Assembly: GCA_027603945.1 (NCBI GenBank)
Contig: JADIIU010000040.1
Location: 1-64,000 of the forward strand
DNA from: Terramyces sp. JEL0728
Lineage: Eukaryota > Chytridiomycota > Chytridiomycetes > Rhizophydiales > Terramycetaceae
Direction of reading: 5' to 3'
DNA length: 64,000 bases
The position numbers and the translations under genes were made by a program. Positions 2,025 to 64,000 of this stretch are shown here, in pieces. Each line of letters starts with the position of its first letter. Within the stretch, counting starts at the first letter, position 1. Under the pieces are notes generated by a model. The model was not told where the DNA came from, ran no database searches, and saw only the letters and a program-made list of their open reading frames with translations.

Positions 2025-4605
2025 ATGGTATTGAATGACTAATTAAAGGTAAACTTCTCAGTAGATGAAATTCGTGAATTGATGGGGAAATCCACCAATG
2101 TCAGAAACATGTCGGTAAGTACAAAGTAATTCAAGGTTATTGCCCATGTCGATCACGGAAAGAGTACTTTGACAGATTCCTTATTGGCAAAGTCAGGAAT
2201 TATCGCTCACGCTAAAGCCGGTGATGCTCGTGCTATGGACACCAGAAAGGATGAACAAGAACGTGGTATCACTATCAAATCCACTGCCATTTCCATGTAT
2301 TTCGAAATGCCTGAACAAGATTTATCGGCAATTAAACAAAAGACTGATGGTACTTGCTAGTTTAACAATAGGAAACGGATTCTTGATCAACTTGATCGAT
2401 TCACCTGGCCACGTTGATTTCTCTTCTGAAGTAACTGCTGCTCTCCGTGTTACTGATGGTGCTCTCGTTGTCGTTGATACCATTGAAGGTGTTTGTGTGC
2501 AAACCGAAACTGTGTTGCGTCAAGCTCTTGGCGAACGTATTAAGCCTGTTGTTGTCATCAACAAAGTCGATCGTGCACTTTTAGAACTACAACTTACCAA
2601 GGACGATTTATACAACGCTTTCCAAAGAACAATCGAATCCGTCAACGTAGTTATTGCTACCTACAAGGACGAAACTCTTGGTGATGTACAAGTCTACCCA
2701 GAACATGGCACTGTCGCTTTCGGTTCCGGTTTACACGGATGGGCTTTCACTCTTCGTCAATTCGCTCAGAGATACGCAAAGAAGTTTGGTGTTGACCAAC
2801 AAAAGATGATGACTCGTTTGTGGGGGGAAAACTACTTTAACCCAAAAACCAAGAAATGGTCCACTTCTCCAGTTGCTGGTGTTGAACGTGCTTTCAACCT
2901 GTTTGTTTTAGATCCTATCTTTAGACTCTTTGATGCTATTATGAACGTAAAGAAGGATGTTACTGAAACCTTGCTCCAGAAATTAGAAATCACTCTTAAA
3001 CCAGAAGAAAGAGAGTTGGAAGGAAAACCACTCATGAAAATCGTCATGAAAAAGTTCTTGCCAGCTGGTGATGCTTTACTTGAGATGATTGTCATCCACT
3101 TGCCATCTCCAAACACTGCTCAAAAGTACCGTTACGACACCATGTACGAAGGTCCGCTTGACGACGAGTGTGCCATTGCCATGCGCGATTGTGACCCTAA
3201 CGGTCCCCTTATGTTGTACGTCTCCAAGATGGTTCCAACCAACGACAAGGGCCGTTTCTTTGCATTCGGTCGTGTGTTTGCTGGTACCGTCAAGGGTGGA
3301 CAAAAGGTCCGTATCCAAGGTCCAAACTATGTTCCAGGTTCAAAGTCTGACTTGTTTGTCAAGTCTATTCAACGTGTTGTACTTATGATGGGTCGTTCCG
3401 TCGAATCCCTTGACGATTGTCCAGCTGGTAACATTGTTGGTTTGGTTGGTATCGATCAATTCTTGCTAAAGTCTGGTACCATCACCACTTCTGAAGTTGC
3501 TCACAACTTGAAAGTCATGAAATTCTCTGTATCTCCTGTCGTAGAAGTTGCTGTCCAGTGTAAAAACCCTAACGATTTGCCAAAGTTGGTCGAAGGTCTT
3601 AAGCGTTTGTCAAAGTCCGATCCTTGTGTATTGTGTTATACTTCTGAATCTGGTCAACAAATTGTTGCTGGTGCCGGTGAATTGCACTTGGAAATTTGTT
3701 TGAAGGATCTTGAAGAAGACCATGCTGGTGTCCCGCTTATCAAGGGTGACCCAGTCGTGCAATATCGTGAAACTGTCACTGCAGAATCCAACATTGTATG
3801 TCTGTCTAAATCTCCAAACAAGCACAACCGTATCTTCATGAAGGCTTTCCCATTGACTGAAGAAGTTGCTCTGGAAATTGACAGCGGAAAGATCAATGCA
3901 AAGGATGATTTCAAAGCCAGAGCCAAGGTCTTGGCTGAAGAACACGGATGGGATGTTACCGATGCAAGAAGAATTTGGTGTTTCGGTCCAGAAACCACCG
4001 GACCTAACTTGTTGGTTGATACCACCAAGGGTGTTCAATACTTGAACGAAATCAAAGATTCATGTGTTTCTGGATTCCAATGGTGTTCCAAGGAAGGTCC
4101 AATGGCTGAAGAAATCATGCGTGGTATCCGTTTCAACATCCTTGATGTTGTTTTGCACGCTGATGCTATCCACAGAGGTGCTGGCCAGATCATGCCAACA
4201 TGTCGTCGTGTGTGTTACGCTTCCGTATTGACTGCCGAGCCTGCTATTTTGGAACCAGTCTTCTTGGTCGATGTCCAATGTCCAGAAAACGCCATGGGTG
4301 GTATCTACTCTGTGTTAAACAAGAAGAGAGGTCACGTCTTCCACGAAGAACAACGTCCTGGTACTCCACTTTACAACATCAAATGTTACCTTCCAGTCAT
4401 GGAATCCTTTGGTTTCACTGCTGATTTACGTGCTGCTACTGCTGGTCAAGCGTTCCCACAAATGATCTTTGATCACTGGCAAATCATGGGTGGAAACCCA
4501 ACTCAACCAGGTAACAAACCATATGAAATTCTCCGTGCTGTTCGTAAACGTAAGGGTCTCGTTGAAGATATTCCTGGACTTGACAAATACTATGATAAAT
4601 TGTAA
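2025..4605 (+). CDS. EEF2: Translation elongation factor 2 (eEF2), four exons
   Basis: Exons 2025-2027, 2049-2114, 2136-2349, 2372-4605; introns of 21, 21 and 22 nt. The GTPase drives ribosomal translocation in the cytosol. Spliced, the start reads [18 protein letters not shown] and continues into the P-loop [24 protein letters not shown] is the switch-I region with the Thr phosphorylated in other eukaryotes. DSPGHVDF and NKVD are the G2/G4 motifs. The C-terminal domain has [16 protein letters not shown]; the His codon at 4171-4173 is the expected diphthamide site. The protein ends in YYDKL like yeast eEF2. The first coding exon is only the ATG, and all three introns fall in the first 350 nt of the gene. 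Without splicing, the 5' end would look frameshifted. Codon use is more biased (GTC, ACC, AAC, CGT) than in neighbouring genes, as expected for high expression. Confidence 0.98.
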
Positions 4606-4760
4606 GCGGTTTATAAATCAATTTTTATTGCATTATTTCAGTTTGTTTTAGATTCGTACAATATTTGATTCATCGCACCTTTAATTTAGAACAAGGATTC
4701 AACCTAGAGTATTCGTCGATGAGTTCTCGAATAAAACAATCCAATGCAATAACTAAAACT

Positions 4761-5261
4761 TTATTCAGCATATTGAGTAACAATGGGTGGAATGTAAGTT
4801 TGAAGAGGAGGAATGTAAGTTTGGAGAGGAGGAATGTAAGTTTGGAGAGGAGGAATGTAAGTTTGGAGAGGAGGGATGTAAGTTTGGAGAGGAGGTAGAT
4901 CAGTAATCAATTGAGGTTCATCTGTTATAAGGAGTGGAAGAGGTGGTAATTGTGGTATTTGTGGTGGTAATTGTGGTAAATCCGTAACAAGTGGTGGTAT
5001 TTCAGTGATCAATGGCGGCAATTCAGTGAACAGAAGTGGTTGGTCCGTAACGAGTGGTGGTATTTCAGTGACCAATGGAGGCATTTCAGTGTTCAATGGC
5101 GGCAATTCAGTGTTCAATGGTGGTTGGTCCGTAACGAGTGGTGGAATATCAGTAACAAGAGGCGGAATATCAGTCACCAAAGGCGGAATATCAGTAACCA
5201 ATGGCGGGATATCAATTGCCTGTCCGTATACAGCAGCAGCTAATAACACAATAGGTTGCAT
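4761..5261 (-). CDS. Secreted low-complexity protein of 7-residue PPL(V/N/Q)T repeats
   Basis: A 166-aa single-exon protein. It starts with a short hydrophobic leader (MQPIVLLAAAVYGQA) that looks like a signal peptide cut after GQA. The rest is almost entirely a 7-residue repeat: four copies of DIPPLVT, then variants (DQPPLNT, ELPPLNT, EMPPLVT, DLPQLPP), then five copies of YIPPLQT. It has no cysteine and no recognised domain. The regular proline spacing suggests an extended rod, perhaps a cell-wall or surface protein; this is inference. A TATA box lies 32 bp upstream of the ATG, supporting a real, possibly well-expressed gene. The opposite strand is also partly open because of the repeat, but it has no leader or promoter. 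Confidence 0.7.
   Translation of the reverse strand: MQPIVLLAAAVYGQAIDIPPLVTDIPPLVTDIPPLVTDIPPLVTDQPPLNTELPPLNTEMPPLVTEIPPLVTDQPLLFTELPPLITEIPPLVTDLPQLPPQIPQLPPLPLLITDEPQLITDLPPLQTYIPPLQTYIPPLQTYIPPLQTYIPPLQTYIPPIVTQYAE
4785..5216. repeat. 21-bp coding minisatellite
   Basis: Tandem 21-bp units encode the heptapeptides of the secreted repeat protein. Five nearly identical units lie at about 4785-4893 (YIPPLQT, C-terminal) and four at about 5133-5216 (DIPPLVT, N-terminal), with diverged units between. The near-identity of terminal copies suggests recent unequal exchange. Confidence 0.8.
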
Positions 5262-5292
5262 CCAATTTGTGAATGATACAGAGAAAATAACC

Positions 5293-5299
5293 CTTTATA
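5293..5299 (-). promoter_or_regulatory. TATA box of the PPLVT-repeat gene
   Basis: TATAAAG on the minus strand, 32 bp upstream of the ATG at 5259-5261. The same spacing (32-41 bp to the chosen ATG) recurs at several genes in this window. Confidence 0.55.
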
Positions 5300-5511
5300 T
5301 GCTAGAATTTGGTCAGAGACCAATCGGGGTTTGCTATCCGGGTTGCTGAGCTTTATGGTGGACAAATGGTGATTCATGTTGAAGCTACAATATCAATCGG
5401 AGTTCAAACTCAGCTACAATTCCACGCGTTTTTTTTGGAATATATCAAAGCACAATCAATGGGAATTCTGTTACAGTCATACGAATAATAATTTAGATTA
5501 CAAAGTATTTA

Positions 5512-11072: not shown

Positions 11073-12772
<1,700 letters not shown>

Positions 12773-14087: not shown

Positions 14088-15990
14088 ATGAACTGCAATC
14101 ACCTGGAAGCGGTTAAAAAGCTGCCCCAATTCACACAGGTATTGGAATCATACCAAGGATTAGTCCGATTCTCACTATTATATCACAATCGCCATTTTCT
14201 TAAAATACACAAGAAAGGGAATCTATTCTTAATGTTAGGAAAGGAACTGAAAATTATGTTGGAAGTAGACGACCAAATAGACGACCAGCTGGATTCTACC
14301 CAATCTAAAGCCAGCTCTACACAGAAAAAGAAAAAAGCGCTTCAGGCTAGTGGAATGGAGAAAATTATCGCTCTGGCGGATAAAGTATTTAGTATTGACT
14401 CAGTTACCTACTCCAATGTGTTCTAAATGCGATGAATTTTTATCCATCTCCCGTTTGCATGCTTGCTTGCACTGTGTATTTATCGGCTGCTGGACTGATT
14501 CGCACTTGAAACCGCATCTAATGGAAAAAAGACACAATTTTGGTTCGTTGATATTAATCTAGCTATGGATATGTCTCGATGCGCCGTCTACTGTCTAGAG
14601 TGTAACGATTATCTGATAGACCACGATTTTGAAAAGATACTACTCTCGGAGCAGTTCAATTTGAACCACATCATATGCAGGATTAGAGGTAAAAATACTT
14701 TAATCAGATCCGTATGGCACGATGCAAGCGCATCAGCTATGGAAACCAACGAATGGCGATATATCAAAAATAACGCAGTTTTCAAAGTCGTTAAAGTGTT
14801 CGGGAATCAGAGGATTAAGAAATATGGGCTCTACTTGCTTTATGAATACTATATTGCAGACATTCTTGCACAACCCGTTCTTGAAAGCACATTTTTTAAG
14901 TGACAAGCATTCTTCAGCAGTATGCCAAAAAGAAGCATCTACATGCATGACTTGTCAGTTGGATAAATTATTCAGCCAGTTTTACGCTTCTGACACTACT
15001 CCATTTACTCCTCATGCTTTCTTGTATGCAATGTGGATGTCGCAAAAGCACTTGGCTGGCTACTCTCAACAGGATGCCCATGAATTTTTCATTTCCGTCT
15101 TGGATGAAATTCACAACAATTGCAGTGGTATATATTGTGTAATCAAGGCACCTTAGATTCATCATCATGCAAGTGTATCGTTCATAAAGTGTTTGGGGGA
15201 ATCCTACAATCAGATGTTACTTGCTTGCAGTGCAACAATGTAACGTTCTCATACGACCCAATCTTGGATTTATCTCTAGAAATCAAAACTTCTGCAAAAC
15301 AAACAAAGAAAAAAAAGGTTGAATCCGAAGAAGACATGGAATATACTCTTTCCGAGTGTCTGGACGAGTATATAAAGCTAACCTAGATTTACTGTGCCAG
15401 AAAAGCTAGGCAGTAACCAGTACCATTGCAAATCGTGCGGGTCTTTTGAAGAAGCGATAAAGCAATTATCCATGAAAACACTACCACCAGTACTCAGTAT
15501 ACAATTCAAACGATTCGAGCATTCGTTAACTTCTTCCAACAAGATTGATACCAAAGTCAAGATTCCATCACAGCTGGATATGACTCCACACACAACTCGA
15601 GCAGTAAAAATGCGCAGTATGATGAACAAGTCTAAAAGCAGCCGCACGCCTAGTAAACAAAACTATGACAGTGTCAGGTAGATTTAGCTAATTCAGTGAT
15701 GGAGTACCTAGCTATCAGTATAACCTTTTTGCTGTAGTTTGCCATGAGGGCAAATTAGATACAGGGCACTACAAAGCATTCTGTAAAATCAATGACGTGT
15801 GGTTTGAATTTGATGACCATAATGTATCAATTGTCGAGTATGCGCAAGTCATGAAGTGCAATGTGTAAGTTTTACTTGATGTAGTTATATGTGCTTTTAT
15901 GTCAAGCAATTCAGCAGTTATGTGCCAAATGAGTTTGGTGACCAGATTCCTATTGAAGTAAAAACCGAAGATGTGGTTATGGATGTATAA
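14088..15990 (+). CDS. UBP8: Ubiquitin C-terminal hydrolase, UBP8/USP22 type
   Basis: Eight exons: 14088-14384, 14404-14542, 14563-14688, 14708-15127, 15148-15367, 15387-15677, 15697-15864, 15885-15990; introns 19, 20, 19, 20, 19, 19 and 20 nt. The product is 588 aa. An N-terminal ZnF-UBP finger (Cys/His pairs in CSKCDEF, CLHCVFIGCW, CLECNDY) precedes a peptidase C19 domain. Its Cys box is GLRNMGSTCFMNTILQ, with HLAGYSQQDAHEFF, SDVTCLQC and YHCKSCGS zinc-ribbon motifs, QFKRFEHS, and the His box LDTGHYKAF. The combination, and the phrases LAGYxQQDAHEF and KRFEHS, match the SAGA deubiquitinase Ubp8/USP22, which removes ubiquitin from histone H2B. It converges on the trehalase gene, with 81 bp between stops. 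Confidence 0.94.
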
Positions 15991-16071: not shown

Positions 16072-18555
16072 TTATTTCTTGAAAACCTTGTCTGGATGGA
16101 CCAGGTTTGCCAAATGCCGTTCAAGTTTAGTATCCAACAAAGTCAATCCAATCTACGTTAATAAGAATTACTTGGTAGCTGGCATTCATCCATCCGAATC
16201 CTTCCTTTGCCACATACTTGAAATCAGTCCCTACATTGCCATACTCAACGTCTACTTGATGAGTTATTACATCCACGTCGAATTTTTCGGGTACGACGCC
16301 ATTGTATTCGACAAAAGATTTTGTAATTGAATATAACCATCGATAGACCAGCTCTTTTTGTTCTTTGATGTAGCCGTAGTGTTGTAGTCCTTTCCATGCC
16401 AGGATTTGGTGTGGTGCCCAGCCAAACGGATAGTCCCACTGACGTTCTGGTCGGTCCAGGCAAATGTGTCCCCTAGATACCTCTGTGCCAGATACAATAC
16501 CGCCAGATAGTGCAAACAGCTCGATACAGGTTTTTACAAGCTTCTCTGCATGCTCTTTATCAGGGATTTTCGCCCATAAAGGCCAGAATGCCGTTGCTGA
16601 TTGGTAAGCCGAACGCACATGAATTGAACAGTCGTAATCATAGTACAAGTTGGCAAGAGGACACCAAAGATACTTGTTGATCGATTCTCTTGTTCGTAGT
16701 GCAATGTCTCTGAAAATTGCAGTTGGGAGTTTGACAGAGAAAAATTTGCCTACATCACTGCAAATTCTGTAATCGACAAACTTTCCTTTGACTATTTCAG
16801 CTTTGGTCTTGTATTGTTCAAATATAACAATCCCTTTTGCCCAGCTGGTATTCCACTCGGTAAACCTGTCAATCAACTTATCGCTTGATTCTAGTAATTT
16901 AAACCACTCTAGGAATAGGTCGTAGTGGACGTTGTTGGTACCATTTTTAACGTAGACCCAGGAATACCCGTCGCAGTAAGTACTAACTAGTTCTGCTAAA
17001 TCCACTTCATATTTAAACAGCAAGCTATTTAAATCTACCGTGACCAAATTTGCACAACGCTTTTCAAAACGGTAGGTGGTATCATGGCCACTTTCTCTCA
17101 CTGCTCTATCATGTAGAAAATATTCATCTAGAGCTGGCTCGAGGATTTCCTTTTTTTGATACTTTTCAGCATAAGTAGCAATATCAAGGCCCATTTCGTC
17201 TGCATATGGTCTAATAGTGTGGTCAAAGTGCGATGCTATTGTCAACAAAAATTACGCTCAGTTTCTGGTGGTATTCCAAGACCTTCTGGATGGTATTTGG
17301 ACAAGCCGGTGGACTTGTCCAACCGCGGTGGACACAGCCAAACCCCGAACAATTCTTTGATTGAGGCTCTAATTCCAGTCGTGATCCACCTTTTTAATCG
17401 CTCTTCGTCAAATTCTGGCTTTGTTTGAAGCATATTATACGTTTGGATCATCATGTCTGTCAAGAATGGGGGTTGGGAACGGGTCAGATAGTAGGACCGA
17501 TTCGCATTTAATATTTTTCCATAATCTATATGAGTATTCGGATTACGTTCAATCTCATACCAAAAGTTTTCTACCATTCCTCTAGCTAATCCTACCCTTC
17601 CATCAATCAATAATCCAAGCGTCTCAAAGTAGGAATCCCAGCCGTACATTTCATTGAACCTTCCACCGGGAACAACAAACGGAGTTCCTACCATTCAGTC
17701 TCAAAATACCTTGATTAGTAACTCAAGAACCTAAATAAAAAAAAAAGAGTACCTTTAATTTGCAAACCAATAGCTGATTCAAAAGTGCGAAGAGCCAAGG
17801 AAAGTATCCCCGGCTTTGTATTGATGCTCTTTACATATTCAGGAGTTATATCTTCAGGTAACACTACCATTTCCAAATTCAAATGAGGTCGTTTCTGAGC
17901 GATATCCTTGTAATATTCTTGTCCCAGTAAATCACCAAACGGTACATAAACCCTGTTTTTCTTGTCTTCAACTTTAGAGTCGTCACAAATCTTTTCAATC
18001 CCATTGGCATCCATTCGTCTGGTCAATTCATCCCAGAAGTGGTATTTGATCAACCGGTTTAGTCGCTGCAGCGGATTTTCGTTTAATCTCTCCAAATCAA
18101 CCGTTATAAAGGTTCTTCCAAATTCCGAAGCCAGTGATAATTCTTGAAGCAGATTTGATAATGCATACGTTCCTCTTACATGCACTGTTCTATAGCCTTC
18201 CGAAGCAGCAGTTCCGAGGGTAAACGCTCTGGGTCCTTGGTCTTGAACAGTTATTTGACAGTCATTGTTGGTATCTTCTTGCTGTAGTAACTCCCGCTTT
18301 GTTTTTTCAACGTCAATGAGGAATGCTTGGTTATGCATAGTGTCGTGCGAGAATCTTCTGGATAGCGGTGTTGGTCTTGAAGGTAATAGAACGGTGGATA
18401 CGTTTCTTTTAAAACCTGATTGTGAGAGTCCGAATACCTAGATCAGCAGATGGATTACCTATACCGTGAGCCTTTTCCAAATCCACATCCGGATATTCCA
18501 ATTCATGTTCCCACTGAGTCTTGTCTTTTTGCTTTGCTTGAAATCGCTTTTCCAT
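16072..18555 (-). CDS. NTH1: Neutral trehalase (GH37), PKA-regulated type
   Basis: Exons 18555-18438, 18415-17753, 17687-17256, 17235-16172, 16152-16072; introns 22, 65, 20 and 19 nt; 785 aa. It hydrolyses trehalose to glucose in the cytosol. The N-terminus has a PKA-type site (LSRRFSHD) and the Ca-binding-like loop [15 protein letters not shown] seen in yeast Nth1. The catalytic domain carries [46 protein letters not shown] and [12 protein letters not shown]. The first exon is chosen from an ATG at 18553-18555 that joins in frame; it matches poorly conserved N-termini, so the exact start is less sure. Intron 2 is unusual: it is three consecutive GT...AG blocks. Other introns are standard for this window. 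Confidence 0.95.
17688..17752 (-). other. 65-nt compound intron of trehalase: three abutting GT...AG units
   Basis: In transcript order: 17752-17731 (22 nt), 17730-17710 (21 nt), 17709-17688 (22 nt). Each block starts GT and ends AG, with no exonic base between. Unit 2 has an ACTAATCAAG end and unit 3 a CTGAATGGTAG end, like single introns elsewhere. Unit 1 has a T-rich core ending ATTTAG. Only removal of all three restores [13 protein letters not shown]; partial removal leaves stops. It is the only intron outside 18-23 nt in the window. Confidence 0.8.
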
Positions 18556-49369: not shown

Positions 49370-50836
49370 TTAATCATTTCTATTGGCCTTGAAAGTAAAG
49401 AAATTTCTTGTTACTAGTCCTGGAGGCAAATAGTCTTGCTTGACAGGATCCTTGAATTCCGGGTTATATTTGTAACCATCGGAATATCCCATCTCTTTCA
49501 TCAACTAATATTAGAACCGAGTACTGGTGTTGGGGCGTTTCTAATATGCAGAGGAACTGGGTAATTGGACTCTGTCTGGATAGTTTTGTGTACCATCTTT
49601 ATCGCTTGATAGGTTTCAACGCTTTTTGGAGACCTAGCCAAGTAGGTAACACAGTGCGCAAGTATAGCATCGCATTCGGGCATTCCTATTACTTGGCATG
49701 CCTGGTATGTCGATAACGCAAGCGGAAGGGCTTCATTATTTGCCAACCCAATGTCTTCCGATGCAAACCGCACTGTAATTAATAAACATGAACCTAAACG
49801 TCTTGAAACATACAAGGGATCTTCTCCAGCATAAATCATCCTTCCCAGCCAATACAGCGCGGCATTAGCATCAGAGCCTCTTAAACTTTTGTGCAGTGCT
49901 GATATAATATTGTAATGTTCTTCCCCATCCCTATCGTACAACACATTATGCTTCAAAATTGCCTTTTTAGCTAGTTCAATTGTGATTTCCTGGCCGCTCG
50001 ACAAAAGATAATCTAATACGTTTAGCGCTGTTCTAGCATCACCGTCGCACATGTTTGCAATATATCCATATACATCATCTGACACTGACTTTACTTTTTG
50101 CCCTTCGTTTTCCAAATCCATTATTTTAAGCTCCATTGCTCGTTTTAGAATTTCAACTAAATACTCGGTAGTTAATTTTTCGAGGACGAATACACGCACT
50201 CTGGATAGCAGAGCATTGTTGACTCTAAAGGATGGATTCTCTGTGGTAGCCGCGATAAAAACATATTCTCCCTTTTCAATATCCAAGAATATATCCTGTT
50301 GCGCTTTGTTAAATCTATGAATTTCATCCAAGAATATGACTCCTTTAGTATTTGTCCTTTTGTAATGCTCTTTTGCTTTAGCGATCGCTTGCTTTACGTC
50401 CTGGATGGTGTGTGTTGTTGCACTAAATTCCTTATACCATCTACTCCTGCTAATCAGCCTTGCAAGGGTGGTTTTGCCTTGTTAAGAAGATTATACCACA
50501 TCCGGGAGGTCCGTAGAATATCATTGACGATAATCGATCGTTTTCAATCAATTGGCGAAGGATTGAATCTTCCTTTACTATTTCCTGGCCTTTAAAATCC
50601 TTGAAATCCATTGGCCTTGACATTTCTGCCAGTGGTTCAGTCCTCTTTCTCTTCTTTGATGGTATCGATTTTGAATTTTCCTGCAATTCGCCTTTAGTTG
50701 CATCGTCGGTTTGCTTCATTGGCACTTCATTGGATTTTGCGGGTTTATCCTTTACCGCACCGCATTGAATATCCAAGTGAAAGTTTATTTCAGGCTCCTT
50801 TACTTTCTCTCCACAGATTGGACAATTAACAAACAT
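49370..50836 (-). CDS. MGS1: MGS1/WRNIP1 AAA+ ATPase
   Basis: Exons 50836-50497, 50477-49525, 49504-49370; introns 19 and 20 nt; 475 aa. A RAD18-type ubiquitin-binding zinc finger (CPICGEKVKEPEINFHLDIQC minus its last residue pair) begins the protein. An AAA+ clamp-loader-like domain follows: Walker A GPPGCGKTT (spans intron 1), Walker B GVIFLDEIHRFNKAQQD, sensor AATTENPSF and the Arg-finger region LLSRVRVF. The MGS1 C-terminal domain has GRMIYAGEDPLYVSRR, ASEDIGLAN and PVPLHIRNAPTPLMKEMGY. It acts at stalled replication forks with ubiquitinated PCNA. Every junction is fixed by conserved motifs. Confidence 0.96.
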
Positions 50837-50904: not shown

Positions 50905-53358
50905 TTAGGTTTTAACTCCGCAGTAATCTCCTCCAAAGTAGGATGCATTTGGATTCAAGGCGTAGACGGGGATTTGGTCTGTAATGTCGACTTGTGTCAG
51001 TCCTTGGATTGTGAATACAATCAATGGGATGAGGGCCGCACCACAGTCTAAAGCCGCAGAGAGAATGTAATTGTAGCGATCGTACCATTTGCGATGATAT
51101 TTTCTACAGTATACTTGAGAAATGAACACCACAATAATGGTGGACAGGATCGCATTGGAGTAGCCAACTCCAATATACGAAGTGGACACAAAAATAATCG
51201 GCCAATTGACGTACTGGAATCCAATTCTTGGAAATTGTTTGGCAAGGTAAAATGTGATTACCGGCAATACAGCTCCAGCGAGGAAAAACCAGTATAATGA
51301 GACATATGGAGTCTCTGTGGTATCAAAGAACTTCTTTGGCCCCAGCAGTCCCCAGATTTTGGTAGCCGTATCTAAAATTAAAGGTTGTTGGCCAGACCAA
51401 TTGTCGTAGCCGCCACCAGTGGAGTTGGATGCTTTTCTGATTTGGGGAACATGGTCAATCATATAATCCATAGTAGCGTAGTTGACAATAGCACCAAGTA
51501 TGCTTCCATAAATTTGATAAAAGAAAACTTGGCGGGGAGGAAGCTTCATATAATATGCAAACTTCAACTGAGCAAGATAGTTGAGACTTTGGTTCAGCAA
51601 ACTAGTTGTGTATGCTTTGAAAGCAGCATTTGCAATGGGGAATCCAGGTTTCAAATAGCCCATAACCATTTCTGAAATGATGTTGAGACTGATAGATTGG
51701 TTTGCAACTGCTCTAAGAATCCCAACAGGCACAATGAAAACAACAGTCATTAAAAGTGCGAGGGGAATCACCCAAAAATCACCCAATAGTTGAAAATCGT
51801 TGGTGGAAACATTCAACGCAAACATTGAGCAAAGAATCATCGCTGCAAGGAACCCAATGTACCAGGCAAGTGGCACATCCTTGTACGTTTTCATTAATTT
51901 ACTGTGAATGTCACTTTCCGATACTGATTGCTTTAGGCTTTTCTTTAAGCCTTGAAAGTTGTTCAAGAAGAAATGTACAACAACTGATGACAGAGCTGCG
52001 AATCCACATCCATAAGCCAAAGCCCAGTAGATCGAAAGGCGCATTGCTGGAGTCTTGGTAGATTCCCCGATAAAATCAACCTTCATTGGGGTATTGGCTG
52101 GTGACAAATTGTATGGATTTCCATTTTCATCAAATGTTTTAGTTGAAAACATTGGAAACTTTCTTGCATTCCAGACGTTAAAGTGGTAGAGTATTGGGAC
52201 TATAATCCAGCCAAGAGCAACATTGGAAAACAGCACATTCATTTGTGCCCATACAGGCGTAATCATAGGAGAAAAGATGGAAATGGCATTCCAGTCAAAT
52301 GTCAGACTGAGTACGCCGCCTCCCAATCTTGAACCGAGTTGAGACAAAACAGGATGAACCTGTCTAAGGTTGATACTAGTTCCGCCCCCAAATATACAGA
52401 GCAGAGAGATGCATTGCAGCAACGGCATAAAAACCTGGGGCAGGAACTGGTAAGTTAGGGCCATTAGCAAAAAGAAGCCAAAAGCCTTTACTCTGAGCTT
52501 TGTAATCTTCTTGTTGATTACACTATGAAAGGTGTGAATCAAATTAGCAGGAACCAGGTTTTCTGGCCACCACATTTCAGCTGGAACTACCAAGAATCTT
52601 TGGAATAGTCCACCCAAACCAAAGCCAAGGCATTGGACAGATATTAAAAACAAGATTGCAATTGGGTAGCCTACATTGATTCCAGCTCCTGGGGCACCAT
52701 AAAACAACCTTTGGACTACCAATAGGATAATACCATACGCTTCCCCAGACGAGGTTGCCGCAATCATGATCATAGAATGTTCTTTGTAGTTGAATGGCCC
52801 AGGATTCAGCATTGTCCAGGAACGGGGTATTTTTGATAGCAGTAGTCCCATAGGGTAGGAGAGTATAATTATAGGAACGTCTATGATTAGTTAAATGATA
52901 CAGCTGATTGGTACATTGTTTAGTCTAAAAAAGAAGAATTGGGAGCAGAATGAATCAATTACAATGAGTATTGTGGATATAGTGAGGATGCGAAAAGTTG
53001 AAATGGATATGTTTGGATCATCGCTAATTGGAATGGTAGCTGCAACTTCCGGTATGGCTGAATTCCACTCTTTCTCTTGGTGATCAGGACTGTAATTGTC
53101 TGCATACTCTTCAGGATCGCTGTCTGACGAATAAGTTTCCAGCCCAAAGAATTGCTTAGAGCTGTTGTTGCTCTGATCGAATATATTTTGCACACTGGAA
53201 TCTACAGTTGAATTCGAATTGACTGGTGACTGTGGAGGGTAATTTTGCTTTGTAGTTGCCATGTCTAATTGGCCCGTAGTGAGTGACAGATCGATATTGC
53301 CTCCACCAAGTTCAGTGTTTGGCTCTTTATTTACACTTTCCTTCGGTTTCTCTTCCAT
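50905..53358 (-). CDS. Oligopeptide transporter (OPT family), copy 1
   Basis: Exons 53358-52902 and 52880-50905, with a 21-nt intron (52881-52901); 810 aa. An N-terminal cytosolic region of about 130 residues contains FFGLETYSSDSDPEEY and IPEVAATIPISDDP. About 14-16 hydrophobic helices follow, with OPT landmarks SWTMLNPGPFNYKEHSMI, PAEMWWPENLVPANLIHTFH, SRLGGGVLSLTFDWNAI, GDFWVIPLALLM and NWPIIFVSTSYIGVGYSNAI. It imports tri- to pentapeptides or related peptides by proton symport. It ends at YFGGDYCGVKT. The start is the first ATG; an upstream open stretch has none. It is divergent from its paralogue, 632 bp away. Confidence 0.95.
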
Positions 53359-53990: not shown

Positions 53991-56664
53991 ATGATAGAAC
54001 AAAAGCTGGATGTACATGACAAGGTTGAACTTCGAAAATCAGAAGACACCATAAACAATTCACCGATTAGCCCAGCAGAAAGCACTCTTGAAAGTGCAGG
54101 CACATTCAATGAGGAATCTCCCAGCCCACCAAAACAGAAATGTTTAGTGAGGAGAGCACTAAACAAAGCAGAGACACAGCTGTTTGAAGCGGAAAATACA
54201 AAAAAATCTCAATTTTATGGAATCGAAACTTATTCTTCAGATGATGAGTGGGATCCATACGAAGAAAAGAAAAAAAGGGATTCAGATTTTTATGGATATG
54301 GACCAGAAATTAGTTATGAAAAAGAGAATTCGATTATACCTGAGGTCGCAGTTACCGTGCCCGTAGAAGACGATGTTACAATGCTGGCACTTACTTTTAG
54401 AATGTTTCTCATATCGACTGTAGTAGTTGGAACCACCAGTTCAACTGCAAACTTTTTTTTCTTTAAATTAAATAGAGTGTATCTGGATGGTAACTAGGAA
54501 TTAATGGTAGTGTTGTCTGTTATTATCTGTGCATATTTTATTGGGAATGGGATGGCGAAATTACCAAAATCATGGAAATGGCTGAATCCAGGCCCTTTTA
54601 CACACAAGGAGCACACATTGATTGCAATCGCTTCAATGGCGGCAAGCTCTAATCTGGGAATGAATGTGATATCACTCCAAAGATTAGTGTATGGGAAAAC
54701 CAACGATTCCAACTTTGTGAATAGCGGGATCAATATTGGCAACGCAAGCGCAATTTTATTCTTGATATCAACTCAATGTATTGGAATTGGGTTAGGCGGC
54801 TTTTTGAACAAGTATTTGGTGCTTCCAGCTACCTTTTGGTGGCCAGAAACTATTACTTCTGCAAACTTGATCCACACTTTCCACAGCACTGTCAGCCATA
54901 TCATCACAAAGTATCGTATGCTTGCGTTTTTCACTGTATTTGGCATTGGCTTTGTATATCAATTCCTACCACAATTTTTCATGCCTTTGCTCCAGTCGAT
55001 TTCCATCCTATGTTTGGCAGCAGGAGGTGCTTCTGGAAAGTTCAATCCGCCTGATAAGCCAATAGCGAAACAGCATTACAAGCAGCCGTTGATTGGGCAA
55101 TTAGGTTCAAGCCAAGGTGGCGGGATCCTTTCACTTACCTTGGATTGGACTGCAATTTCATTTTTGGATCCTTTGGTTACCCCAATCTGGTCCCAAGCCA
55201 ATGTACTATTTTCCAGCTATTTCTTGGCGTGGATTGTTACCCCGATTTTGTTTGCTTTGAATACTTGGAGTGCTCAATCTTTTCCCTTATACATGCCTGT
55301 AAACTTTCTCCAAAATGGGACCAGATATAGATTACAGCAGTATCTGGTAAATGACACACTGCCGGAAGGGGTTGAAGTGCCTCCAATGTGGATTCCGCCG
55401 TATTGGGCTATATGCTATGGCTGTGGGTTCGCAGCACTCTCATCTGTAGTCGTTCACTACTTGGTTCATTATGCTGCGAATTCATACAAAGTCTTTTTCC
55501 TCTCTTCAGACGAACTTGCTCAAAAAGATATCCACAGTAGATTGATGAAGAGATATGAACAAGTTCCATTGCTGTGGTATGTAGGCTGCACCGTTACAAT
55601 GCTAATTATTGGCGCATATGTAACCACGCTCAATCCCATTGGATTTCAGATCTCTGGCGACTTTTGGGTTATTCCTCTAGCTCTGCTTATTGCGACTGTG
55701 TTTGCAATTCCCACTGGTATTATCAGATCAATTTCAAATCAAACGATCGATCTTTCCATTATCACTGAATTGATTATGGGGGTGCTTAAGCCAGGATTTC
55801 CCTTGGCAAATGCAACTTTTACCGCGTTTGCGAATGCTGCGTTGCAACAAAGTCTTGGTTGTGCTGCTCAAATGAAATTGGCCTACTACATGAAAGTTCC
55901 ACCAAAAGCTGTCTTTATCATGCAAGTATATGGTGCTGCTTTAGGATGTATCGGTTTGTTTATTATTAATTCTAGTAAACTACTTTTCGTTTGATTACAT
56001 GGTTCGCAATGTTCCTCAAATCTGGAAAGCTACGCATACGATGTTTAGTACCGATCAATGGAGTGGTAGATCGTCTGCTATTCTCGAAACCGGGTCAGAA
56101 ATCTTTGGAGCTCTTTCCCCTTTGAGATTCTTTGATGGAAACAGCACTCCGTACAGCCTGCTCTTCTGGTTCTTTTTGCTTGGAGCAACTTTGCCTTTAG
56201 CGTTTTATTTATTAGCCCGATTCTTCCCTAAAGCTGGTTTACACTATGTCAACTGGCCTATCATCTTTCAATCAGCTGCTGTCGTTGGCGGTGGCCATGG
56301 AAATGCTATTCTATCTGCCACGCTTGTTGTTATTGGAACTCAATTCTTTTTAAGAAAGTACAAACGAAGTTTCTATGACAAGTACAACTATATCACAGCT
56401 GCCGGTTTAGACTGTGCTGCCACTGCAGTGCCTATTCTGTTGTATTTACTCTCTCAATTAAAGAGAATCACTGCAGGTGGAACCCACTATGGCTGGGACG
56501 ATATCACAGATCTTATTCCATATTACGCCTTGAAGCCTGACCCGACTACCTTTGGACAGGATTACTGTGGAGGATTCAAATTCTTTAAACCAAATCATAC
56601 CGGTCAATTTAATGGATCAATAGCCTCTGGGTTCAACAGTACCAGCGGCCATTCTTGGCATTAA
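53991..56664 (+). CDS. Oligopeptide transporter (OPT family), copy 2
   Basis: Exons 53991-54489, 54511-55953, 55976-56664; introns 21 and 22 nt; 876 aa. It has the same plan as copy 1: an acidic N-terminal region with FYGIETYSSDDEWDPYEE and IPEVAVTVPVEDDV, then SWKWLNPGPFTHKEHTLI, PATFWWPETITSANLIHTFH, SSQGGGILSLTLDWTAI, GDFWVIPLALLI and NWPIIFQSAAVVGGGHGNAI. A C-terminal tail of about 28 residues after DYCGGFKFF is extra. Intron 1 is at the same position and phase as the single intron of copy 1; intron 2 is specific to this copy. Proton-coupled peptide importer of the plasma membrane. Confidence 0.95.
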
Positions 56665-58387: not shown

Positions 58388-58411
58388 GAAAAAATTTTCA
58401 AAAACAAAAAA
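58388..58411. promoter_or_regulatory. 24-bp divergent spacer between RRP42 and TFIIS start codons
   Basis: Only 24 A/T-rich bases (an A-tract on both strands) separate the two start codons. Both promoters and leaders must overlap or extend into the opposite gene. Confidence 0.7.
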
Positions 58412-59336
58412 ATGACGCTGGAAGCTAATGAGATTCCAATGATCAAGAATCAAATATCCAAAGCACTGAAAGAAAAGGATTTCACTGTAAGACATTTCTA
58501 ACATAGAATGTTGCAGATCTTTTATCGCAGCTGGAACATTTTAAAGCCTCTACAGAAACCTTAAAAGTAATTTTTGCTAACCGCAGTCGACGAGGATTGG
58601 AGTATTTGTTACTGATATCAGAAAGCATCCTGATATATCAGAAGACATTAAAAGCCAAGCCAGAGTTCTGGTGAATCGATGGAAGCATGACATTGGGAGA
58701 ACAGTTGAAATTAAACGGCAAGACTCTATAAGCTCGCAAATCTCTACTCCGACATCGCCTGTAGATAGAACTGTCACTACGGATAGTATCAAAGTGAAAA
58801 ATCTGGGAGATAAAGTTCGCATCAAGTGTACCGAAATGATTTATGCAGCTCTGGCAACTGGATCTAATGAAGGTTTTTTGTATTAATGTAGAACCAAAGG
58901 ATGTATTGGAGATATGTGAAACAATTGAAAAGACTGTTTTTGCAGAATACGGTGCTACAAATGAGCACTACAAGAAACGGTTCCGTGCACTGGTATCAAA
59001 TCTCAAAGACAAGTCCAACCCAACCCTAAAAGCTAAAGTGGTAATCCGCAAAATTAAACCTGATGTTTTTGCCCTAATGTCTACGGAAGTAAGAATTTCT
59101 AAACCTAGGATATGATGTCAGAAGATAGACGAGCAGTAGTAGATGAGGCCGCAAAAGAAGCATTAGAAGAAGCCACCTCTGCGCAACCAGTATTACAAAC
59201 CACAGATATGTTCCGGTGCGGAAGATGCAAACAAAGAAAAGCTACATACTACCAAATGCAAACCAGAAGTGCTGATGAGCCTATGACTACCTTTGTTACC
59301 TGTGTAAATTGTAATAATAGATGGAAGTTTTGTTGA
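58412..59336 (+). CDS. DST1: Transcription elongation factor TFIIS
   Basis: Exons 58412-58486, 58507-58566, 58587-58872, 58892-59088, 59109-59336; introns 20, 20, 19, 20 nt; 281 aa. The N-terminal TFIIS N (LW) domain (LLSQLEHFKAST, TRIGVFVTDIRKHPDI, ARVLVNRWKHD) is followed by a Ser/Pro/Thr linker. The central domain has VRIKCTEMIYAAL and NLKDKSNPTLKAKV. The C-terminal zinc ribbon has FRCGRCKQRKATYYQMQTRS, then ADEPMTTFVTC. It contains the invariant RSADEP loop that enters the Pol II active site to stimulate transcript cleavage. The start is the first ATG; a second in-frame ATG at 58439 is possible. It shares a 24-bp divergent spacer with RRP42. Confidence 0.96.
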
Positions 59337-59387
59337 TCCATCCAATAAAGTTTTATCCTTGCCTTGTTTATACTGGGTCTTGCTCAA

Positions 59388-59648
59388 TCACACTCTGCTG
59401 CGATCATGAATATCAAGCACAAGTTGAAAGAAAGCAGAGTCCATGCCAATCGCAAGATATGAGTGGATTGAACCCCAACCTCTTAATCTCGATTTGGTTA
59501 TGTCATTAGGCTCAGTAGCAACAAGATATTTTTGGAGATACCCTGAGGTCAACTGTGAAACTGCGAGACTGGATGGCATCGCAATAAACAAAAAATAGCT
59601 TGATTGATAGGTGCTTTGTGCTTTTCCATTCACAATCGGTTCCGGCAT
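59388..59648 (-). CDS. Hypothetical 86-aa ORF, uncertain
   Basis: ATG at 59646-59648; MPEPIVNGKAQSTYQSSYFL ... KSRLRGWGSIHSYLAIGMDS. No recognised domain. It ends 51 bp from the TFIIS stop, convergently. The plus strand is also open over part of this stretch in two frames, so the coding strand is not secure. No TATA box seen. A GT...AG block of 21 nt near the end (59368-59388) would extend the frame antisense into TFIIS, which is improbable. Confidence 0.3.
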   Translation of the reverse strand: MPEPIVNGKAQSTYQSSYFLFIAMPSSLAVSQLTSGYLQKYLVATEPNDITKSRLRGWGSIHSYLAIGMDSAFFQLVLDIHDRSRV

Positions 59649-59790
59649 CCTAAACTGGATTGATTTATTAATTGCCTCGTTTTTGTGCTACTTACTCCTG
59701 CAACAGGGGGTTCAACTGGGAACCTGGCTTTCAAGGTGGCGAATCAAAAAAAGAATAAATAGTGGAGGCTTGCAGCAACCGTACTCTCAT

Positions 59791-60078
59791 ATGGCAAAAA
59801 TCGACTTGTCTCTGTTCGATGAGCTGATGGCAGATATGCCTTCCACATTACTGCCAAAGCAGAAAAGACACAAATACCAGCAAAAGAACGACGACCTGTA
59901 CTTTTTAAATGTAAATCCAACCCCAGGAAGGAATTCTTCAAACTGCCCAGTTGTAAAAAGTCCACTCACAAGATATTCAGCTCATGTATTATATGTTCAC
60001 TATGAAATTGAAGAAATCGAATGTCCAAAAAGTGCCCCGTTACCTAAGCTGAGGGATAGCGGTGTGTACATGAATTAA
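59791..60078 (+). CDS. Hypothetical protein; open frame continues upstream without an ATG
   Basis: From the ATG at 59791, 95 aa (MAKIDLSLFDELMADMPSTL ...). The same frame is open upstream to 59611 and there encodes a good transmembrane helix (LLIASFLCYLLLQQGVQL) followed by a basic WRIKKR. This suggests the real protein is longer and begins in an upstream exon I could not place, because no donor occurs 18-23 nt before the likely acceptor at 59610. No family recognised. It ends VYMN. Confidence 0.45.
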   Translation: MAKIDLSLFDELMADMPSTLLPKQKRHKYQQKNDDLYFLNVNPTPGRNSSNCPVVKSPLTRYSAHVLYVHYEIEEIECPKSAPLPKLRDSGVYMN

Positions 60079-60552
60079 ACCTTATATATATATCTCATAA
60101 TAAACTTAATTTTAGTATATCTTTGGGACATTCTTACCACGTGACCTTAATTATGTTTATGAACTATTGAAGCAACCAAGGTGCTGGAAGACTCGTGCCG
60201 AGAACGCTGCGAATTAATGTTGCATACAATTAAGGATATCCTTGATTACCAGACTGCAACAACATTGCGGCAATTGTAAATATTTCTACACCAGCTTAAA
60301 ACGGTAACCAAATGAGATGTTCAGCCCATGCGGAATGAATAGATTCGCCGTCAATCAACTCTTAACTAATGTCCATAATTGAAGATAGCCTGCAAGGAAC
60401 CAAATTTAATATCTGACTGCGCTTAAAAATACTGAGACGTTGGCTAGTCTATTTTGTTTCATGGTTTGCTGGCTGTTTGCCCGCATTGCAAACCAAAAGA
60501 GATTTGCCAGCCACACCAGTTATAAATGACAAGGAAAAATTACTTTTTGCCA
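60079..60552. other. 474-bp intergenic region
   Basis: No credible ORF. A TATA box (TATAAAT at 60521-60527) serves the following small gene and overlaps an in-frame ATG at 60526. Confidence 0.45.
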
Positions 60553-60834
60553 ATGGCAGAAGGGAAAATTAAAGGAAGATCAACAAAAAAGCCAAACCTC
60601 AGAGTATTTATACCAACAGTGAGTTCGCTTGACCAGAAAAGTTTGACCACAAATTCAATCATGAAAAGAAAGAGCTCGGTTGACTGCTACTCTGCAACAA
60701 CTCCAAAGTCAGTCCACACATTAATAAAATCTGCTGCACCAGAGAGGCGGTCCATGAATACCATTCTCTCATTAATGGATACGCTGCTGCTGGAGATAAA
60801 TGGAGACTTGAACGAAAAAGTATTACCTTGCTGA
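60553..60834 (+). CDS. Small basic protein, unrecognised
   Basis: A 93-aa protein (MAEGKIKGRSTKKPNLRVF ... LEINGDLNEKVLPC). An ATG at 60526 would add 9 residues but is part of the TATA box (TATAAAT at 60521), so the ATG at 60553, 32 bp downstream, is chosen. Rich in Lys/Ser/Thr in the first two thirds; a C-terminal helix (SMNTILSLMDTLLLEINGD) may mediate an interaction. KRKSS is a possible kinase site. Function unknown. Confidence 0.5.
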   Translation: MAEGKIKGRSTKKPNLRVFIPTVSSLDQKSLTTNSIMKRKSSVDCYSATTPKSVHTLIKSAAPERRSMNTILSLMDTLLLEINGDLNEKVLPC

Positions 60835-60911
60835 ATTAATTATATATATTACCATTAGACTAATAAAAACCTTGCGAATTTTATGCTTGAATTTTTAGAC
60901 TTTTTTTGAAA

Positions 60912-61804
60912 ATGTTAATCACAAGCCCATTGCTTCCTATTGTATTTTGGCACGGTATGGGAGACTCTTGCTGTGACGGAATCAGTAGGATTGAAAATGA
61001 AATACAATCTTGGTATCCTGGAACGTTCACATATTCAATCATGGTAGGGAAAGACAAAGATGAGGATAAAAAGGCAGGATTCTTTGACAAGATTGACCGC
61101 CAGGTATTATAAATTAACAAGATTGAATATGTGTGTCAAGACTTGAAGTCTAAACCAGAACTTGCCAGTGGATTCAACGCGATTGGGTTCTCGCAGGGAG
61201 GTTTATTCTTAAGAGGATTAGTTCAGAAATGTGATTCGATTAGAATTGTAAATCTAATGACTTTTGGTTCCCCGCATGCCGGCGTAGCTGATATTCCTAA
61301 CTGCGAAGAAGAGTCTGCGAATTGCTCCTTGATGCGATCGATTGTAAAAGCCGGTGCATATTGGAGCTGGATTCAGTCCTCTGTGGTTCAAGCGCAATAC
61401 TACAAGGATTGGAAAAACTTGGAAACGTACCTTGAATCAAATATCTTCTTGCCAGACTTGAATCAGGAGCTGCCAGATGTTGATAACAAGTATTCTGATA
61501 GGTTGAAATCGCTGAAACGACTGATTCTGATAAAGTTTGATCAGGATCGCATGATAGTTCCCAAGGAAACAGCGGTAACTGATTTCTAATCAAGTGGTTT
61601 GGATTCTATGATAATGAAGGAAAAGTAGTGGATTTGAAAAACCAGGAATGGTACAAGGCCAACAAACTAGGACTCAAAGACATGGATAATCAGGGGAAGA
61701 TTGCATTCGTAACTTTGCCTGGAGAACACATGAAAATTACTCATGAAGATCTCAAAAAATTGATTGAAGAGTATTTTATCTCTCTAAATATACTGAATAT
61801 TTGA
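60912..61804 (+). CDS. PPT1: Palmitoyl-protein thioesterase (PPT1 type)
   Basis: Exons 60912-61103, 61122-61574, 61595-61804; introns 18 and 20 nt; 284 aa. An alpha/beta hydrolase that removes fatty acids from S-acylated proteins. PIVFWHGMGDSCC (oxyanion region), GFNAIGFSQGGLFLRG (nucleophile Ser88), LMTFGSPHAGV, FLPDLNQELP, then WFGFY and LPGEHMKI (catalytic His), all in family order. Known PPT1 proteins are lysosomal and have a signal peptide; here the first 20 residues start directly with the beta strand and no hydrophobic leader or upstream exon is visible. The 18-nt intron (61104-61121) is among the two shortest. Confidence 0.93.
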
Positions 61805-62500
61805 ATCTGTTTGTAGTTATGAAGCCGTTTTCTTACTTTGACAGATGACTCACATAGACATAGGGGGTGAGAGGTAATAGATCTGCACTGATCCTCTCGC
61901 AGAGACAACAAACAAAGGCGCTAGGGAAATCTATGATACAATGATATGCTGTCTGTTGGCCCGCTAATTCATATATTCGTTATATCTGACAGTCTGGCTT
62001 GATGGAATGCTATTGATCTCACCTCGGCTCAGATACCGAAATAGACGGCCCCGCATGCGTCGCATTGAAGTGGGGCGAAATCAATTTCATAAAAGACTTT
62101 TATCTGACAGGTAATGCAAGTTAGGACAAAAGGAAATGCCAATCCCGTTTAGATTTCAAGTTTTTCAGTGTGTAGGTTCAATTGGTCCTAATATTATTGT
62201 CCATTCACCTCTATATTTAGAGCTTTCATGAGCTAATTTCCGAAAACAGATGACTTTTCATACGACCCAAAAACCGCTGGGCAAGGCACAAGTCAGAAGA
62301 TGGCAGCTGAAAAAGCCGTATTGCCGCTCAATCGATCTAACAAACGCATTCCTTTGCGATATCCGTTGATCGGCCTAGTATTGCAAATTTTCCATTCTGC
62401 ACGTTTGTTTATGACGTCTGTGTGCTTCAGTGCCATTTCTTGTGTAACCGAGCGTGGGTTTATAAGGGGCAAATGAATGACCTACTCACAGTAATTAATA
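61805..62500. other. 696-bp intergenic region, the longest in the window
   Basis: No ORF with support, no RNA gene or repeat recognised. It lies upstream of the C2H2 gene. A TATA box is at 62461-62467. Confidence 0.5.
62461..62467 (+). promoter_or_regulatory. TATA box of the C2H2 gene
   Basis: TATAAGG, 40 bp upstream of the ATG at 62501. Confidence 0.5.
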
Positions 62501-62954
62501 ATGATTTCGATCGCATCCTTGTTGAATGAGGAGGTAGTATGCAAACCCGAACCAGTCCACTACACTCCATACGAATACCCCAAATCTAAACCAAGAACCA
62601 ATGGCATCGGTAAGATAAAAGCTAACTGTAGAAATCCTTCTTCATTCAGCCGATCTTGTCAGCGAACCTCCAAAGCCTTCCCCAATCAATACCAATATAC
62701 ATTCATTCCGCAGCGACCACTTGTCCGATGGCACAATTTCGCCAATCTCTCCAAATGGAAATCGGCCTTTCCCTTGCAGCCGCTGCGATCAGACATTTTC
62801 AAGAAAGCACGATTTAATTCGCCATGTACGCATTCACACTGGAGTAAAGCCATTCCAATGCACCAGATGCGGAAAAGGATTTGTTCGCAAGGATGCCTTG
62901 AAAAGACATGAAGCTATGGACGTCGAAATCCGAAGATTTCGCTGTGTAGTTTAA
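62501..62954 (+). CDS. Two-finger C2H2 zinc-finger protein
   Basis: Exons 62501-62609 and 62632-62954; intron 22 nt; 143 aa. A Pro/Ser-rich N-terminal half precedes two tandem C2H2 fingers: FPCSRCDQTFSRKHDLIRH and, after the linker VRIHTGVKPFQ, CTRCGKGFVRKDALKRHE. The finger pair and its position near the C-terminus resemble fungal Msn2/4- or Crz1-like regulators. Key helix residues of finger 1 (R-K-H-D-L-I-R) and finger 2 (R-K-D-A-L-K-R) are visible. The unspliced frames are both open, which could mislead gene callers. The target sequence is unknown. It has a long 5' intergenic region and a TATA box. Confidence 0.88.
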
Positions 62955-63069
62955 ACGAGGACTCCATTGTACTATAAATGCATCTTAATATATTTTTAAT
63001 CCGTATTTCATTGTATCCGCAGATCATTGACATGGCGTTTTTTCAAAATAGACTTTTCCAAATACAATC

Positions 63070-64000
63070 ATGTCCTTGCTGGAATTTCCATTACCCCCAA
63101 CAATACAGACGGAAGATCAGCAATGGTCCCTGCCGGAACCAACAGCCTATGTATCTCCAAATAGCAGCGACTCATCTGACTCTGAATTTGAACAGTTTGT
63201 AAATCCCGAAGACCCATCAACTCATTCATTTTATATTAAACCGCAACATAGACCTGTTCGGGATATTTTCTTTCTATTTTTATATGGACTCTGCATATTG
63301 GCGTTTGTTGCAACAGGATTGTATGAAGTACTCTCAAACACTTCAAAAATAGCAATTGCAAAATCAATATTTTCTATACTTGTGAAAAATGCTGGTAATG
63401 CAATATGTTGATACAGGTTTACTTTCAACCCTTTCCTTCCTTTCGATCCTTGGATCAATTTTATGGCTGCTCATGCTAAAGCAGTTTTCAAAGGTACGAA
63501 AATGCTAATAAGGCAATTATTGTAGCGACTGGAATGTTTGTACCCGTCAGTATTGTCTCTATATCTGTTTTTAGCCTTGCGCAATTCGCAAAGGAAGCAA
63601 GATCTAAGGATTCTCTGTTTGAATTGAACATGATGACTGCTATATCCTGCTTTGGAATATTACTGGGTCTTTATGCAGCCTTCCATACTTGGAAAAATAG
63701 GAATTTGGCAGTTGTGTTGGACAGTATTGTCCAGCTTTCTATGGTGATACTTAGGGCAAACCCCAGCTTGATTCTCCTATCATTCTTTTTGACAGGAATT
63801 CACATTCTCTTCTCCTTGTTTTGGTTTTGGGTATTTGTTCACATCTTTTTGCACGGATCCCCTGTTTCCGATGGAGACAAGATATCGTTTGTTTTGGACA
63901 GTTCTGGCCCTTGGATCATATTTTTCTTCCTGCTGGTTTATTTCTGGACATCTTCTTTACTAAAAAACCTGGAGAAGGTAACAGTTGCATCCGTTGTTGG
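63070..64000 (+). CDS. PNS1: Choline-transporter-like protein (SLC44/PNS1), 5' part
   Basis: Exons 63070-63394, 63417-63493, 63513-64000 and beyond the window; introns 22 and 19 nt. The visible 296 codons give an acidic Ser-rich N-terminus (SPNSSDSSDSEFEQFVNPED), TM1 after RPVRDIFFLFLYGLCILAF, a loop, and several more helices. The conserved CTL segments are VLDSIVQLSMVIL, then FFLLVYFWTSSLLKNLEKVT and VASVVG, where the family has (Y/F)xxxWTxxVxxNxxHVTVAGVVA. CTL proteins are plasma or vacuolar membrane proteins; some move choline, but yeast Pns1 does not clearly do so. It is cut by the window end. Confidence 0.9.

Follow-up and report, generated by a model that had tools for sequence, protein, structure and literature searches.

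Genes and introns of the window

The window analysed here is a stretch of 64,000 nucleotides (nt) from the chytrid Terramyces sp. JEL0728 (Terramycetaceae, Rhizophydiales, Chytridiomycota in the taxonomy record), positions 1 to 64,000 of contig JADIIU010000040.1; the assembly (GCA_027603945.1) comprises 15.0 Mb in 231 contigs. Its genes are interrupted by predicted introns of about 20 nt and, at a few sites in the genome, intron-like units follow one another head to tail. An initial annotation, made from the letters of the window, had placed 69 introns in 23 genes, 68 of them 18-23 nt long, with a mode of 20 nt (31 cases) and 63 beginning with GTA. We used a gene finder based on a codon-use score, with a codon table iterated from its own GT-AG models. 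In the trained model applied to the window, signals and lengths are learned, the length prior favours 15-26 nt and abutting introns are barred. The result is nearly the same: the 23 genes have 70 introns, of which 67 measure 18-23 nt and the other three 17, 65 and 106 nt, with the mode at 20 nt (31 introns) and a GTA start in 64/70. The gene models and their introns are as follows.

2025..4605 (+), eEF2: introns 2028-2048 (21 nt), 2115-2135 (21 nt), 2350-2371 (22 nt)
11073..12772 (-), ELP3: introns 12484-12503 (20 nt), 12283-12304 (22 nt), 11834-11851 (18 nt), 11620-11639 (20 nt)
14088..15990 (+), UBP8/USP22-like: introns 14385-14403, 14543-14562, 14689-14707, 15128-15147, 15368-15386, 15678-15696, 15865-15884 (19-20 nt)
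16072..18555 (-), neutral trehalase: single introns 17526-17546 (21 nt, in frame and stop-free), 17236-17255 (20 nt), 16153-16171 (19 nt)
18416..18458 (-), trehalase: two abutting putative introns (21+22 nt)
17688..17752 (-), trehalase: three abutting putative intron units (22+21+22 nt)
19144..34612 (+), presumably MDN1/Rea1-like, 5103 codons: introns 19383-19401, 19657-19675, 19966-19984, 22285-22303, 26384-26405, 27192-27211, 27389-27409, 29867-29887
34765..35890 (-), presumably sugar-kinase-like: introns 35804-35823, 35554-35572, 35460-35479, 35091-35110
37003..39771 (-), BRO1/ALIX-like: eight introns of 20-21 nt, 39490-39510, 39290-39309, 39127-39147, 39006-39025, 38928-38947, 38765-38784, 38449-38468, 38248-38267
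44918..46255 (-), presumably phosphodiesterase-like: introns 45907-45926, 45514-45533, 45094-45113
46293..47696 (-), CoA-transferase: introns 47634-47653, 47222-47241, 47122-47142, 46589-46608
49370..50836 (-), presumably an AAA ATPase (WRNIP1/MGS1-like): introns 50478-50496, 49505-49524
50905..53358 (-), presumably oligopeptide transporter-like: intron 52881-52901
53991..56664 (+), presumably oligopeptide transporter-like: introns 54490-54510, 55954-55975
58412..63512 (+), further predicted genes: introns 58487-58506, 58567-58586, 58873-58891, 59089-59108, 61104-61121, 61575-61594, 62610-62631, 63395-63416, 63494-63512

The name MDN1/Rea1-like follows the initial annotation and is tentative, as are the other names marked as presumed. 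The spliced length of 15309 nt first proposed for MDN1 corresponds to our model of 5103 codons, stop included. In eEF2, the coding part of exon 1 (2025-2027) is the ATG alone, directly followed by a 21-nt intron. Two introns are doubtful, 59304-59320 (17 nt) and 62946-63051 (106 nt), both in models without homology support. A small protein predicted at 4761-5261 (-) contains tandem PPLVTDI-like repeats, each encoded by 21 nt; these are distinct from the intron arrays described below.

An ultrashort intron size class

The size class was also obtained with an untrained gene finder, which takes any GT..AG of 10-150 nt as an intron at flat cost and uses no other motif. On a sample of 264 kb, made up of the window and twenty 10-kb stretches, it placed 101/193 introns in the 18-23 nt class. 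Six fake dinucleotide pairs served as a control, for which the codon table obtained from the GT-AG models was kept; here the same class held 10/169, 17/167, 26/166, 12/165, 14/163 and 8/163. No excess over the fake pairs was observed in this sample for the classes of 10-17, 24-35 and 36-150 nt. An unselected sample of 304 kb, chosen regardless of introns, was analysed with a trained model having a 16-26 nt length prior. It yielded 169 models of at least 150 residues (250661 coding nt), 123 of them intron-bearing, and 386 intron sites. Single introns occupy 383 of these sites, and 368/383 measure 17-24 nt. A narrow range below about 25 nt as the rule, which characterizes ultrashort-intron genomes, is thus found both in the untrained peak and in the trained sample. 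A surplus of stop codons in introns of 3n length was seen too, but was set aside as evidence because the gene finder hardly detects stop-free 3n introns.

The introns share their signals. An A stands at position 3 in 92/102 introns of 18-22 nt, and a YTAAY motif is common to the set, its key columns being T in 101/102 and A in 101/102. In single introns of the unselected sample the putative branch A lies at intron position 14-15 in 326/363 and is followed by 5-6 nt, AG included, in 320/363; the position term used to choose branch sites was itself learned from this intron set. GT-AG ends together with a YTNAY branch site are the features of U2-type introns. The genome also contains a U2 small nuclear RNA (snRNA; 140 bits) with the standard GUAGUA, complementary to the branch motif, as well as an SF1 gene above its family cut-off and a U2AF65-like gene that reaches 251.7 bits in one frame and so lies below its family cut-off of 310.3.

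Junctions were then considered against homologous proteins. A junction was called clean if the alignment had no gap at three residues or less from it, and 26 of the 28 single junctions compared were clean. This was the case for 3/3 in eEF2 (the start of which is absent in two relatives), for 6/7 in UBP8 against chytrid and other fungal homologues, the remaining one falling in a variable-length loop, and for the 3/3 single junctions of trehalase, one of which bears the Boothiomyces insert described below. In ELP3, 4/4 junctions lie in ungapped alignment to Elp3 8ptx_C, BRO1/ALIX gave 7/8 against ALIX 2r02_A, and the CoA-transferase was gapless at 3/3 junctions within the aligned part, its first intron lying outside; positions in these three proteins were derived by hand. 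The trehalase intron 17526-17546 was missed by both the trained model and the public model, and is visible only against homologues: its seven residues are absent in 9/9 relatives shown. Globomyces UBP8 has nine extra residues at 15368-15386, a junction counted as clean; their interpretation as a retained tiny intron was dropped as ambiguous.

Public gene models of the same contig are partly wrong because the introns are so small. The spliced eEF2 matches the public Terramyces sp. JEL0728 Elongation factor 2 at all 817 aligned residues (100% identity). Of the intron sites in three public models, 6/15 agree with our placement (eEF2 2/3, UBP8 1/7, trehalase 3/5). Public eEF2 (P0001) uses the last two introns, of 21 and 22 nt, and misses the first; public UBP8 has introns of 316, 86, 329 and 20 nt, with loss of conserved exons; in public trehalase the introns measure 43, 65 and 20 nt, and the 19-nt intron is read as coding. 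The initial annotation had expected standard gene callers to fail on such genes, which is what happened at 9/15 sites but not at the six placed as here. Dropped exons or translated introns, as tiny introns would explain, also occur in database proteins of Terramyces and Boothiomyces (P0124, P0121, P0241, P0242).

The public trehalase of Boothiomyces macroporosus, a member of the same family Terramycetaceae, is informative at two positions. Where Terramyces has its 20-nt intron, RKSILTTA replaces one residue (+7), and where it has the 19-nt intron the Boothiomyces protein ends in VIISNLD, each in matching phase. Either peptide could be the translation of a GTA..YTNAY..AG intron, 21 nt long for the first and 19 nt for the second; among the 11475 combinations of position, phase and length in this protein, only 10 allow this. 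Judged from the protein, the Boothiomyces trehalase thus reads as if introns of 21 and 19 nt had been translated at two positions where Terramyces has introns.

Could the segments of about 20 nt instead be kept in the RNA, either bypassed by the ribosome or created by frameshifting assembly errors? They are short, many of them shift the frame and they are predicted from genomic sequence. However, GT, YTAAY and AG are common to them at near-fixed spacing and match the U2 snRNA, fake site pairs have no comparable size class, and Boothiomyces appears to have introns at the same two positions. We consider retention or error extremely improbable. The earlier claim that spliceosomal introns of about 20 nt are the rule is upheld by the fake-site control, the shared motifs, the GUAGUA of U2 and the clean junctions.

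Tandem arrays of intron units

The initial annotation did not mention tandem arrays, which go beyond it. The trehalase introns of 43 and 65 nt split exactly into 21+22 and 22+21+22 nt, every piece being GT..AG. At 18416-18437 the trained model has a 22-nt intron, which is better read as the 43-nt pair 18416-18458; the public Boothiomyces protein is equal in length at this site. A trained gene finder allowing abutment splits the 65-nt intron in three, and the homologous protein is continuous across the site. This three-way split was first assumed to be an artefact, a view that was revised once the 43-nt pair was found.

Among the 27 gene-finder introns of 36-69 nt, four are divisible into units, compared to 0.117 expected from length-matched random GT..AG and to 0-1 of 42-64 for fake pairs. 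In the unselected sample of that run, intron-like units with a score >2 abut in 6 cases, against a mean of 0.76 at other gaps. Genome-wide, the pattern CTAAY-AGGTA-YTAAY at unit spacing gave 42 matches vs 11 for the reversed pattern; with one base inserted between units the numbers were 2 vs 12 reversed. A second array pattern gave 83 vs 36. These totals are not array counts because matches overlap within arrays.

We examined 25 of 34 places as array loci, accepting in chains units with a signal down to -3. A unit chain was found at 22/25 loci: 11 have two units and 11 have at least four, with a maximum of nine, and array length is 40-198 nt. Signals are weak (-0.8 to -0.2) in the final unit of both L036 (nine units) and L045 and in the initial unit of L050; L038 has five units, and in L037 the last of eight was dropped as coding. 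Within the intervening sequence AG and GT are juxtaposed (AG|GT), one feature of recursive splicing. Arrays are rare: in the unselected sample they account for 3/386 sites by gene finder and up to 5 by hand, and an abutting unit with a signal of at least 2 was found for 1/368 single introns, which is the trehalase pair itself.

Excision of the whole array joins open frames of at least 20 codons on both sides at 20/22 loci (best of three frames). When the cut was shifted by 1, 2, 4 or 5 bases, frames were joined in 9, 12, 10 and 13 of 22; removing the first unit alone, or all but the last, joined 7/22 each. Three conserved proteins, GID8, a tyrosine aminotransferase and an E2 enzyme, show gapless homology across their array sites. 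An array of five units lies within a TPR motif, and a TFIIH p62 match, slightly below cut-off, runs across one of four units; an RRM match takes in three residues ahead of an array with two units. A Pfam search on eight joined pieces gave nothing for three, an off-site match for the dynein-like piece and sub-threshold matches only for another. That arrays are assembly or repeat artefacts might be suspected from the exact repetition of some units and from several contigs with near-duplicated matches; yet units are divergent in most arrays, and the frame joining and gapless homology just described also speak against artefacts, which we judge highly unlikely.

Neighbouring units are mostly dissimilar. 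Identity is complete in only 4 of 58 neighbouring pairs, and in 12 it is above the 95th percentile for random pairs; mean identity is 0.656 vs 0.597 for random pairs (the pairs count the dynein-like array of two contigs twice and include the dropped L037 unit). The 46/58 pairs within the random 95th percentile imply that most units are unrelated or long diverged. Their signals are nevertheless kept: units outside the search pattern have a signal >2 in 24/28, vs 7.9% of random GT..AG, and YTNAH is present in 20/22 untouched non-last units, vs 18.5% of random GT..AG.

These figures bear on whether arrays are single longer introns, removed from first donor to last acceptor, with the inner AG|GT as relics of tandem duplication. 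An intron of 45 nt without inner units does exist in RPS3, some neighbouring units are similar beyond chance, and the mRNA would be identical by the one-step or the stepwise route. Duplication relics would be expected to decay, however, whereas donor, branch site and acceptor persist in units that are no closer than random. We regard single longer introns as a serious but doubtful possibility. Unit-by-unit removal of arrays is the most likely course, favoured because inner signals persist without sequence kinship.

Unit number itself can differ. Matching stretches of two contigs (within C37:35001-35700 and C56:21051-21650), from the same dynein-like gene, have 6 mismatches over 583 aligned bases and one 21-nt gap, which is exactly one whole unit. 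As a separate observation on duplicated sequence, kinase matches on C18, C3, C26 and C42 recur within one contig at constant distance with near-equal scores (about 62 kb on C18), which suggests long duplications or joined haplotypes.

The window contains one further candidate.

174..260 (-), candidate array: 23-nt units, 3.8 copies, inner boundaries AG|GC or AG|GT, no open frame through

Its units end in AAAAG, start with GC or GT and have GTAAC near the end. It lies upstream of a minus-strand gene starting near 119 and is possibly an intron array of the 5' untranslated region.

Proposed splicing and comparison with known systems

Taken together, the window very probably belongs to the nuclear genome of this chytrid, in which U2-type spliceosomal introns have shrunk to about 20 nt and a few sites consist of complete introns arranged head to tail. 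Such an intron would comprise a GTA start, a YTAAY branch site with its adenosine at 14-15, and a tail of 5-6 nt that ends with the AG. Recognition would occur by intron definition, U1 and U2 acting across the donor-branch distance of about 14 nt, with a short step to the AG and no space for a polypyrimidine tract 3' of the branch site. Arrays would arise where more DNA has accumulated and would be spliced out unit after unit, the AG|GT boundary remaking the donor each time.

Several points weigh against this interpretation. Splicing itself, its order and the cause of shrinkage are inferred from genomic sequence. Single introns of at least 28 nt were predicted 15 times in the 304 kb; the homology test was applied to the RPS3 one alone, and the others may be model errors. 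The RPS3 intron (L005 4814-4858, +) measures 45 nt, is indivisible into units and passes the homology check. We therefore dropped the statement that no intron exceeds about 25 nt, and about 20 nt is no absolute limit; since this intron has no inner units, one-step removal of at least short arrays would also be possible. Abutment becomes thin at stricter scores (2 vs 0.18 at >4, 0 vs 0.04 at >5), no chain was found at 3/25 array loci, and at a signal of at least -3, 21/736 flanks of single introns would extend as well. Inner and last donors that are untouched have an A at position 3 in 15/20, vs the 92/102 of single introns. As to the snRNAs, a genome search, made without a working control, gave no match for U1, and the U6 core, uninterrupted or gapped, was not found in genome searches. 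Two near-identical U6-like matches (C199:4823-4928, L022; C111:34941-35045, L023) fall below the Rfam threshold and are too divergent to be named U6. The true U6 gene could be absent from the assembly, have diverged or be interrupted in its turn.

A wider proposal, which we hold to be evenly balanced between true and false, is that the intron is a modular unit of about 21 nt. Introns would then grow and shrink by whole units, like a minisatellite of complete introns, and up to nine units would be removed singly with zero-length exons; unit number would vary between alleles and the mRNA would be constant. If true, modular units would add a new way for introns to be gained and to change in length. 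The arrays would offer a handle on length counting by the spliceosome, on zero-length exons at 21-nt spacing and on intron multiplication.

Terramyces is culturable and is not known to be a reduced parasite. In the literature found, tiny introns have so far been described from relict nuclei, ciliates and parasites; a culturable fungus of this kind would make minimal splicing geometry testable. The initial annotation knew of no fungus-like genome with this size class as standard, and we likewise found no such fungus among the open-licence papers listed in our literature search; nor was there a printed report of abutting intron arrays among them. Its list of comparable systems, the nucleomorph and Stentor, was short and left out mikrocytids and Babesia microti.

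The comparisons that follow draw on parts of the cited papers (comparison literature also includes PMC5126111, PMC6110457 and PMC11649378). In a survey of 644 fungal genomes, a mean intron length of 63 bp is cited as relatively short (PMC8476143). The chlorarachniophyte nucleomorph is alike in size class (18-21 nt) and narrow range (PMC10245619), 18, 19 or 20 nt being commonest depending on species (PMC4494063); it is a relict nucleus with about 300 intron-bearing genes, whereas Terramyces has a 15 Mb fungal nuclear genome. The heterotrich ciliate Stentor coeruleus (15-16 nt) resembles Terramyces in its near-fixed branch A, 5-nt tail and U2 GUAGUA, but its introns are shorter, have a 1-nt range and occur in 18% of genes, in contrast to mostly 19-22 nt, 123/169 models and tandem arrays in Terramyces (PMC9505925). 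Mikrocytids (16-17 nt) have uniform tiny introns as well, 224 being predicted in Mikrocytos mackini, but unlike Terramyces they are reduced intracellular parasites (PMC10245619). Introns of similar size, 20-25 bp, occur in 70% of the genes of Babesia microti (PMC7293334), a blood parasite and not a fungus.

For the arrays, two systems come closest. Drosophila ratchet points have abutting acceptor and donor (AG|GT) like the Terramyces arrays, but lie within long introns and require a cryptic exon, whereas spacing in Terramyces is about 21 nt and arrays measure 40-198 nt (PMC8605326). The stwintrons of Hypoxylaceae are adjoining U2 introns removed by consecutive reactions, as proposed here for arrays, but they are nested pairs and the Terramyces arrays are abutting strings of 2-9 units (PMC9024468). 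A stwintron is defined by an internal intron that disrupts a splice element of the external one; the Terramyces units instead abut, each with its own GT and AG. An earlier stwintron form, with the internal intron beside the donor, would most resemble a two-unit array (PMC9024468).

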